From Deltaproteobacteria bacterium (GTDB lineage Bacteria; Myxococcota_A; Polyangia; HGW-17; SLPX01): DNA of 40,060 nt. Below the pieces are notes generated by a model, which was given only the letters and a program-made list of their open reading frames with translations, was not told where the DNA came from and ran no database searches. This document shows, piece after piece, positions 31,254 through 35,502 of the stretch. The stretch's first letter is position 1. Each line of letters opens with the position of its first letter. The stretch is from contig JAGGXR010000061.1 of assembly GCA_021162935.1 (NCBI GenBank), forward strand, positions 1 through 40,060, given 5' to 3'. A program made the position numbers and the translations under genes.

Positions 31254-31281
31254 TTGACGCACAGATCCATTGTGCTATATA
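31254..31281 (+). promoter_or_regulatory. Probable sigma-70 promoter for fusA
   Basis: TTGACG (31254-31259) and TATATA (31276-31281) with 16 bases between; TATATC, two bases further, gives an 18-base spacer. The leader to the TTG start would be about 158 bases. Confidence 0.6.
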
Positions 31282-31445
31282 TCCGCGCCGTTCGTTGCAA
31301 CAAATCCCGTCCAGCCAATCGGGAGCCATTCGGTGACGACCGAATTCTCGTCATGACCGAACGCAACCGAACGCAACAACGATGGATTCGATGTTTCGTG
31401 GCGCCTCGACGGCGGCACGGGACGCAGGGCAGAGTGGAGGCCCCT

Positions 31446-33533
31446 TTGTACGACTTGGCACACATTCGGAACATCGGTATCAGCGCGCACATCGATGCGG
31501 GAAAGACGACCCTGACCGAGCGTATCCTTTTTTACACTCAACGGATCCACGCCATGCACGAAGTGCGTGGCAAGGATGGGGTGGGTGCGACCATGGATTC
31601 CATGGACCTCGAAAAGGAGCGCGGTATTACGATTCAGTCGGCTGCGACCTACTGCCAATGGAAGGGGTCCCGGATCAACATCATCGACACCCCTGGACAC
31701 GTGGATTTCACCATCGAGGTGGAACGGGCGTTGCGGGTCCTGGACGGCGCCCTGCTCGTCTTGTGCGGGGTGGCAGGCGTTCAGAGCCAGACCATCACGG
31801 TGAATCGGCAGATGCACCGGTACCACGTCCCCAGAATCGCCTTCATCAACAAGTGCGACCGGATGGGGGCGGATCCCCTGCGAGTGGCTCAACGCATCAA
31901 GGAAAAACTCGGACTCAACGCCGTTCCCTTGCAGATCCCCATCGGCGAACAGGCTGATTTCTCCGGCGTGGTGGACCTCATCAGCATGAAGGCCCTCTAC
32001 TTCGACGGGCCGAATGGGGAAACCATCAGGCAGGATCCGATTCCCGACGACATCGCCCAGCAGGCGCAGAAATATCGGGAGGAAATGCTCGACGCTGCTT
32101 CCATGTACAGCGATGAACTGCTAGAAGCCGTGCTGGAAGACACCCCTTCCGAAGAAATGATCCAATCGGCCATCCGCAAGGGCGTTCTGAAGCTCGAACT
32201 CGTGCCGGTCCTGATGGGTACGGCATACCGCAACAAGGGAATTCAGCCCTTGTTGGACGCATTGGCGCTGTATCTTCCTGCGCCCGACGAGGTGCCCAAT
32301 TCCTACACGAACCTGGACACGAACGAATCGGTTTCAGTGGACGTGGCCACCGACGATCGGCTCCTGGCCTATGCTTTCAAGCTAGAAGACGGGCGATACG
32401 GTCAACTTACCTATCTGCGGATCTATCAGGGGCACATCGCAAAGGGGCAAACGCTCGTCAATCAACGAACGACGGACAAGGTCCGGGTGGGCCGTCTGGC
32501 GCGCATGCACGCAAACGAGATGGAGGACATCACCGAGGCGCAGGCCGGAGACATCGTGGTCCTGTTCGGAATCGACTGCCACAGCGGCGACACGTTCACC
32601 GACGGCACCTTCAGGGCGACCATGAGCAGCATGCACGTTCCAGAGCCTGTCATTCGCCTCTCGGTCACGCCCAGTGATCAGAAATCCAAGATGGCCATGT
32701 CCCGCGCCCTCCAGCGGTTCTCCAAAGAGGACCCAACGTTTCGGGCCCATGTGGACCAGGAAAGCGGCGAGACGGTCATCGCCGGCATGGGCGAACTGCA
32801 CCTAGACGTCTATATCGAACGGATGCGCAGAGAATACGGCGTGCAGGTGGCCGTGGGACAGCCGCAGGTGGCCTACCGAGAAGCCGTCACCAGAATGGCG
32901 CCCTTCAACTATCTCCACAAGAAGCAGACCGGTGGCTCGGGTCAATTCGGCAAAATCGAAGGCTTTCTCGAACCCACTTCGGAGGCCACGGATTTCGTTT
33001 TTGAGAACAGGGTTCGGGGAGGCAATGTCCCGACCGAGTACATTCCTTCCGTTGAAAAAGGATTCCGTGCGATGCTTGCGCGAGGCATGATCATCGGGTT
33101 CCCGGTCACGAACATGAAGGTAGTGCTCGAAGACGGCAAGGCTCACTCGGTGGACTCTTCGGACAACGCCTTCCAGGCAGCGGCGCGGGGCGCCTTTCGG
33201 CAAGCATATCCCAAGGCGTCTCCCCAAATCCTCGAACCAGTCATGAAGGTTGGGGTCGAAGGACCGAATGAGTTCCAGGGAGCAATCCTGCGAACCCTGA
33301 TGTCCAGACGCGGCGTGATCATCGGTACCACCGAAGATGCTGGTTTTTCCAACGTGGAAGCCGAGGTTCCCTTGAGCCAAATGTTCGGCTATTCGACGGA
33401 GCTGCGATCCGCCACCCAGGGCAAGGCGGAATTCACCATGGAATTCGCCCGCTATTCCGTGGTACCAAAGGATGTGGCGGACGAACTCAAAAAGAAATAC
33501 GCGGACCGGGTCAAAGACCTCACGGTGGACTGA
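31446..33533 (+). CDS. fusA: Elongation factor G, mitochondrial-like spd1 subfamily
   Basis: Translocation GTPase of 695 residues. GTPase motifs: AHIDAGKTT (14-22), RGITI (59-63), DTPGH (81-85) and NKCD (135-138). The stretches [59 protein letters not shown] and [19 protein letters not shown] match mitochondrial EFG1 and the spd1 type (spirochaetes, planctomycetes, deltaproteobacteria) rather than ordinary FusA, which has TDWME-x-E-x-ERGITI. Domains II-V follow, with [24 protein letters not shown] and [23 protein letters not shown]. The TTG start at 31446 follows GGAGG by 5 bases; an ATG at 31353 would add a basic 31-residue extension. NKCD in place of NKMD is unusual. Confidence 0.93.
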
Positions 33534-34337: not shown

Positions 34338-34946
34338 CTACTTCGCTGGTTTCCAGACCTTCCAGACATTGCCGACCAGGTCGGGTCCGGGCTTGAGTGT
34401 CTGACCTCCAGGAGTCCAACCGGCCGGCGTGGCTTCCTTGCCGCCCGTCTCTCGAACCAACTGGAAGGCCTTGATCTGCCGGATGGCCTCGTCGATGTTC
34501 CGACCTACCGGCGGCGTCATGACCTCCATCGCCTGAATCACCCCATCAGGGTCGATGAGAAATCGACCCCGCATCTCGACCCCGGCATCCTCATCGTAGA
34601 CTCCGTACACCTTGCCCACGTGACCGGCCCCGTCCGAAGCCATTTTCCAAGGAATGCCGCCTTCGACCATTTTGGACAGTTCCTGTTCGTCCCAGACCTT
34701 GTGGGTGAACTGACTATCGACGCTCACCGAGATGATGTTGACATCGAGGTCACGAAGCTCCTGATATCTGGCAGCGACCGCTGCCAATTCCGTCGCTCAG
34801 ACGAAGGTGAAATCACCTGGATAGAAGCACAGGAGGGTCCAGCCCTTGCCCACCGACTCAGACAGCTTCACCGTGGTAAACTCACCTTTGTAATACGCCG
34901 GTGCCTCGAAATCGGGCGCCGGCCTACCGACACGCGCTCCACTCAT
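34338..34946 (-). CDS. Selenocysteine-containing peroxiredoxin (AhpC/Prx type)
   Basis: Reduces peroxides. The frame reads [15 protein letters not shown], a TGA codon at 34797-34799, then [14 protein letters not shown]. In ordinary peroxiredoxins this is FYP-x-DFTFVCPTE, so TGA occupies exactly the peroxidatic cysteine (residue 50 of 202). Downstream is intact: [35 protein letters not shown] and [13 protein letters not shown] with the conserved Arg, so it is not a decayed gene. A SECIS-like hairpin follows the TGA. The usual resolving Cys near the C-terminus (VCP) is missing (EATPAGW), making it a 1-Sec type. The ATG at 34946 follows AGGAGG by 8 bases. The genome must carry selA, selB, selC and selD elsewhere. 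Confidence 0.9.
34770..34785 (-). promoter_or_regulatory. SECIS-like hairpin for selenocysteine insertion
   Basis: On the transcript, 11 bases after the UGA, GGCAGC-GGUC-GCUGCC forms a perfect 6-bp stem (extendable by U-A and U-G) with a GGUC loop. Bacterial SECIS elements carry unpaired GG/GGU in the loop at this distance for SelB binding. Confidence 0.85.
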
Positions 34947-35502
34947 CGTTGTTGCCTCCTTCTCCGTTACGGTCGTCTCTTCATCGTGTCCATCGAGTCC
35001 CTCCACGTGGAGCGATACCGACGCCCCAGTGGGTCTCGCACATCCAGCCATACATCCACCTCCTTTGCCAATGACGGCACCATCCCGGCCACGACCAAAC
35101 CATGGTCGTCCATGGATCATTTCCGTGGGTTGTTTCCATTCCTCATAAGCCTTATCACCAATAGGAATGAAAATCTACAAAACCATTCGGGGCGCCCTAC
35201 ACAAAACCCATTCGGGGCTCCCCACCACGATCCTTCCGGCTGGGCCGCCTACCTGGATGAGCGTCACGAGGAACCTGGCCGGATCCGGTGAAGCCCGGCG
35301 GCATGTGGCGCACATACACAATGGGGACGCTGCACGCGGCCGAAGGGGGCGGCACTGCCTTGATCTGTGGTACGATTTGCGTCTTGTGATGGCATCGATA
35401 TAGTGGGGAGACGATCCAAACATTTGATATGGATGCACGACGAGGTTCCCATGTTCTGCCACTGCCGGGTTGTGCATCACATGTGAGACAAGAGAGGAAA
35501 TC
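34947..35502. other. Divergent intergenic region, peroxiredoxin to TerB-like gene
   Basis: About 556 bp without a convincing gene; a 78-codon frame at 35167-35403 has no recognisable content. It holds an imperfect direct repeat (ACAAAACC-ATTCGGGG units at 35177 and 35201, the second with one extra C), a small palindrome ATAAGCCTTAT (35145-35155), and a possible promoter toward the TerB-like gene, TTGCGT (35377-35382) and TATAGT (35399-35404). Confidence 0.5.

Follow-up and report, generated by a model that had tools for sequence, protein, structure and literature searches.

A PrxU-family selenoperoxiredoxin gene with a conserved N-terminal arm cysteine and a putative second start

How should a peroxiredoxin (Prx) gene be read when a TGA codon stands in place of its peroxidatic cysteine, and what would complete the catalytic cycle of an enzyme that lacks the usual C-terminal resolving Cys? 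A locus on the minus strand of the window, the 40,060-nucleotide stretch of DNA analyzed here, raises both questions. The minus-strand frame from 34946 to 34338 contains a single TGA, and reading through it yields a 202-residue AhpC/TSA Prx that has Pfam matches to AhpC-TSA and 1-cysPrx_C, a P-G-D-F-T-F-V-U catalytic motif, and the conserved Arg126. Ordinary open reading frame (ORF) calling split the gene into two pieces, 34797-35120 and 34338-34787, as a sequence-only reading of this DNA had predicted. That reading also placed the start at 34946, which proved too late to be the sole start: the long start typical of the family is an ATG at 35051-35049, 35 codons upstream. We consider it probable that the gene encodes a selenocysteine (Sec) peroxiredoxin of the PrxU family, with the AhpC/Prx1 fold, Sec insertion, a candidate resolving Cys on an N-terminal arm, and a putative second start. 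The features of the locus are as follows.

34338..35051, minus strand: prxU, long form, 237 aa, with Sec as residue 85; matched by the PrxU model NF040737 with the TGA inside the match.
34338..34946, minus strand: prxU, putative short form from an internal ATG (the start of the sequence-only reading), 202 aa, with Sec as residue 50; its internal Shine-Dalgarno sequence is under selection.
35059..35064, minus strand: Shine-Dalgarno sequence AGGAGG upstream of the long start (7-nt spacing to the ATG); seen in the sequence and common to nearly all relatives.
34947..35051, minus strand: N-terminal arm, predicted to be disordered (pLDDT about 40-60), with a motif conserved at the protein level and free synonymous codons.
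35025..35045, minus strand: GCARPTG motif; its Cys4 codon (35040-35042) encodes the candidate resolving Cys.
34955..34961, minus strand: internal Shine-Dalgarno sequence AAGGAGG, formed by Lys-Glu codons and spaced 8 nt from the internal ATG; family z scores of -12.4 and -11.6 against synonymous shuffles.
34827..34829, minus strand: second invariant Cys (C40 in the short form, C75 in the long form), invariant in alignments A1 and A4.
34797..34799, minus strand: TGA for Sec, the peroxidatic residue of the PxxxTxxU motif; all 80 fetched relatives have TGA here, as do 6 genomes of the same phylum.
34770..34785, minus strand: predicted bacterial SECIS hairpin with a 6-bp stem and the apical tetraloop GGUC; supported by conservation and covariation.
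34416..34436, minus strand: EATPAGW, where 2-Cys Prx have their C-terminal resolving Cys and this protein has Thr; 26 of 87 relatives carry Cys.

The TGA at 34797-34799 replaces the peroxidatic Cys directly after FTFV, as had been noticed from the sequence, and the flanks on both sides are in frame and conserved. The residue after Sec is Ala (UATE), where Pro is canonical. Relatives were sought with a query carrying Cys at the peroxidatic site and with short peptide patterns that did not cover that site. Every one of the 80 loci fetched from public genomes had TGA at the peroxidatic codon, and the TGA-bearing relatives came from Chloroflexota, Thermodesulfobacteriota, Acidobacteriota, Fidelibacterota, Calditrichota, Synergistota, Actinomycetota, Pseudomonadota, Bacillota, and other phyla. 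The same codon was found in five same-class genomes (62-67% identity), in one further genome of the same phylum (L140), and, at the identical position, in the prototype prxU of Peptoclostridium acidaminophilum. The relatives next in line (46% identity or less) were Cys enzymes among those inspected, with the exception of L143. This locus (G221:C195:11273-11797, minus strand) encodes a more divergent Prx whose peroxidatic codon is likewise TGA (FYPADFTFVU) and is accompanied by a GGUC hairpin; it scored 213.6 bits, under the PrxU cut-off, and its host genome also has a true PrxU (L140).

The hairpin GGCAGC-GGUC-GCUGCC described in the sequence-only reading was recovered at 34770-34785, starting 11 nt past the TGA. 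Its GGUC loop lies 17 nt past the UGA and fits the bacterial SECIS geometry given in passages of PMC13188914, namely a small loop with a G within its first two positions at 16-37 nt from the UGA. An Rfam scan of the prxU locus returned no relevant family. The raw folding energy was only moderately unusual (z = -1.74) and unconvincing by itself, so covariation was used. Across 86 genes, the apical loop was R-GU-Y with one exception; it opens with the third base of an Ala codon and closes with that of a Val codon. The loop-closing bases were G..C in 65 genes, A..U in 20, and G..A in 1, a match in 85 of 86 genes compared with a mean expectation of 54.5 and a maximum of 67 in 10,000 shuffles. A stem pair (offsets 18-27) was G-C in 49 genes, A-U in 27, C-G in 6, and U-A in 2. 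Stem and loop pairs changed on several branches of the tree, and independent pairs went in the right direction in 2 of 2 and about 3 of 3 cases, numbers that do not suffice for a formal test. The covariation falls at synonymous positions of the hairpin, and together with conservation in 86 homologues it places the predicted SECIS element beyond chance.

The genome from which the window comes (5.13 Mb, 97% complete) contains all of the Sec genes that had been proposed as a check: selA (539 bits), selB (331 bits), a tRNA-Sec (selC) with a TCA anticodon (68.9 bits), and two selD genes. Sequence, machinery, and covariation together show that the gene is equipped for Sec at the peroxidatic position, with insertion predicted to occur via the hairpin: SelB carrying Sec-tRNA would bind the hairpin directly past the UGA. 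A gene broken by a genuine stop or a sequencing error can be dismissed, as it is favored by the stop codon itself and the splitting of the gene by ORF calling and by nothing further, and it is at odds with TGA at the identical codon in each of the 80 relatives, which span many phyla, the complete Sec machinery, the conserved flanks, and the covarying SECIS.

The second selD (L021; G000:C124:218-1135, minus strand) also carries TGA at the codon for its Sec/Cys residue (ASGUAAK), followed by a hairpin, and is a candidate selenoprotein gene itself. An EF-G-type elongation factor gene in the window (31254-33533) gave a weak selB match and is not SelB.

The window gene is a new, typical member of the known PrxU selenoprotein family. 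The short form scored 366 bits against the NCBIfam PrxU model NF040737 (cut-off, 270), and inclusion of the arm raised the score to 374 bits, with a match that spans 34344-35048 and has the TGA inside; the AhpC model TIGR03137 gave 178 bits, below its cut-off of 272. Passages in three papers present Sec-containing Prx as a long-known selenoprotein family (PMC1794560, PMC1088965, PMC13188914), and PMC13188914 and PMC9312934 cite Sohling et al. (2001) for the PrxU of Peptoclostridium (Eubacterium) acidaminophilum. This kind of selenoprotein has been known since 2001, and what is added here is a corrected reading of the gene. The prototype prxU of P. acidaminophilum was the best match in a plasmid collection (60% identity over 97% of the query). 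Its product (WP_084481301.1) resembles that of the window in the Sec at the peroxidatic site, encoded by TGA at the same codon, the R-GU-Y SECIS loop, the N-terminal arm with a GCARP Cys, the internal Shine-Dalgarno sequence and ATG, and the absence of a C-terminal resolving Cys (EVAPSGW in the prototype), whereas it belongs to another phylum and has a different arm linker sequence. The combination of Sec with a missing C-terminal Cys, judged uncommon in the sequence-only reading, is therefore not unusual in kind. The TxxU motif and PF00578 are also shared with the Sec-containing Prx (TxxU) of prokaryotic selenoproteome surveys (PMC1088965, PMC1794560, PMC13188914), the relevant passages of which do not mention an N-terminal arm Cys or an internal start.

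In a structure model, the core adopts the Prx1/AhpC fold. Typical 2-Cys Prx1/AhpC enzymes (PDB 7kj1, 5zte, and 1n8j) have this fold (query TM-score, 0.86-0.89), the PxxxTxx[C/U] motif, and the catalytic Arg in common with the window protein, which differs from them in having Sec for Cys, no C-terminal resolving Cys, and an additional N-terminal arm. The missing C-terminal Cys (EATPAGW) had been correctly recognized from the sequence. Of 87 family members, 61 likewise lack it and 26 have it; the best tree implies at least 7 changes. The conclusion drawn from it, a 1-Sec enzyme, holds as far as the C terminus is concerned; that the protein is simply a 1-Sec enzyme is not supported, as the late ATG of that reading had cut off a conserved arm Cys, the residue best placed as a candidate to close the catalytic cycle.

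Upstream of 34946 the frame is open, and the PrxU model aligns as far as 35048; the long start ATG at 35051 adds 35 residues to the N terminus. Nearly all relatives are laid out alike: a Shine-Dalgarno sequence and start codon are followed by G-C-[A/G]-[R/K]-P-T-G, a variable linker, K-E-x-x-M, and the core. Of 89 family members, 86 have the arm Cys (TGC in 49, TGT in 37), and all four codons of each of the motif residues Gly, Pro, and Thr are in use across the family. This freedom at synonymous positions indicates that selection acts on the protein and, hence, that the arm is translated. The exceptions are L092 and L135, which have no arm, and L112, in which the motif is apparently split over two frames. 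L092 has a C-terminal Cys, and L135 has neither Cys.

A 1-Cys Prx would have no second conserved Cys available for resolution; the long form has two conserved Cys residues that might serve, Cys4 on the arm and C75 within the core. C75 is invariant but lies in a beta strand, and the arm Cys is the most widely kept Cys besides it. A Cys-type relative in a genome of the same order (L036, genome G007) also carries the additional Cys that lies ten residues ahead of the active site (ICFYPADFTFVCPTE), so that this Cys is not exclusive to Sec enzymes. Since 26 of 87 members retain the C-terminal Cys, the arm Cys is not merely a replacement for it. Cys4 is, in our view, the best candidate for the thiol that resolves oxidized Sec, and on balance we lean toward this role. 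In established Prx chemistry, attack on the peroxide yields a selenenic acid from a Sec selenolate, and this step would apply here. In the long form, the flexible N-terminal arm would then carry Cys4 to the oxidized Sec and form a selenenylsulfide, which thioredoxin or another thiol would reduce.

The internal ATG at which the short form would begin is preceded by a Shine-Dalgarno sequence of its own. In 87 genes, the mean anti-Shine-Dalgarno pairing energy at this site was -7.96 kcal/mol compared with -4.52 kcal/mol after synonymous codons had been resampled according to the codon usage of the gene concerned (z = -12.4, reached by 0 of 200 replicates). A tally of GTG at valine starts from this 87-gene test was left aside as circular, ATG and GTG being the sole codons allowed. 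Strong Shine-Dalgarno sites occurred at the internal start in 92% of genes, versus 30% in the shuffles and 8.6% at other internal Met codons. A test with a fixed site definition in 89 genes gave a z of -11.6. The signal held in 10 sequences less than 72% identical and in 36 genes with GAG at less than 40% of Glu codons (0 of 300 shuffles in each case). The positional profile of the anti-Shine-Dalgarno energy had a single sharp peak at the spacing expected for a start; energies of about 1000 at some offsets are artefacts that denote no duplex and were capped in the fixed-site test. A start codon was found within a short search interval in all 89 genes (ATG in 83 and GTG in 6). L092 and L135 have the internal start only, and the prototype prxU has both starts. 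The internal start is thus a signal under synonymous-site selection across the family, as judged from the sequences. We think it likely that it is used, giving a short form made from the conserved second ribosome-binding site and start codon; this arm-less protein would be a true 1-Sec enzyme in need of an external thiol. Sec of PrxU is reportedly numbered 47 in the 2001 paper, a number that would agree with the short form in P. acidaminophilum.

Given two starts, the short one could be the main one. PrxU would then be a true 1-Sec Prx: catalysis would not depend on the arm, and an external thiol (thioredoxin, glutaredoxin, or a low-molecular-weight thiol) would reduce the selenenic acid directly. 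The strong, conserved Shine-Dalgarno sequence at the internal start, the lack of the C-terminal Cys in 61 of 87 members, and L135, without either the arm or the C-terminal Cys, are all in keeping with this possibility, but we regard it as rather unlikely in view of the arm Cys in 86 of 89 members, the protein-level constraint on the arm, and the arm's own strong Shine-Dalgarno sequence. Alternatively, the sequence before the internal ATG might not mark a start at all and instead slow ribosomes ahead of the UGA and SECIS, or be a relic of an ancestral start. Shine-Dalgarno-like codons within genes can pause ribosomes, and the arm could be a later addition upstream of an older start. We consider this unlikely, as all 89 genes have ATG (83) or GTG (6) within the short search interval, a relic would be expected to decay at synonymous sites over so many phyla, and L092 and L135 possess only the internal start. 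Finally, in place of resolving Sec, the arm Cys might bind a metal, an anchoring partner, or a client in a redox relay. The GCARPTG motif exceeds a lone Cys and is retained even beside a C-terminal resolving Cys, as such a role would have it; the motif nevertheless has one Cys only and no other metal-ligand pattern, and the arm is disordered in the model, which makes this role improbable.

The likeliest reading of the two conserved starts is that PrxU genes encode two proteoforms, a long form bearing the arm and a short 1-Sec form, and the conserved second start predicts that the two have different reducing needs. More tentatively, tandem in-frame starts, each with its own Shine-Dalgarno sequence and found across many phyla, might provide both a long form, whose resolving Cys sits on a mobile N terminus, and a short 1-Sec form, the two possibly mixed in one ring. 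If true, the arm Cys and the two starts would explain how a selenoperoxiredoxin is recycled without the usual resolving Cys. Both are sequence-level findings and apparently unreported: a literature search, which did not cover the primary 2001 PrxU paper, returned no published report of a PrxU arm Cys or tandem starts.

A sigma-70-type promoter scan gave no match at the locus, and no conserved neighbor gene that might serve as the reductant was found across the family loci; rubrerythrin- and ferritin-like genes, named by eye from their sequences, lie close by in only a few loci. The window PrxU (34338-35051) clusters weakly with the Chloroflexota sequences L057-L059, and transfer of the gene between phyla is possible. 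The class to which the window genome belongs includes many genomes of 8-13 Mb.
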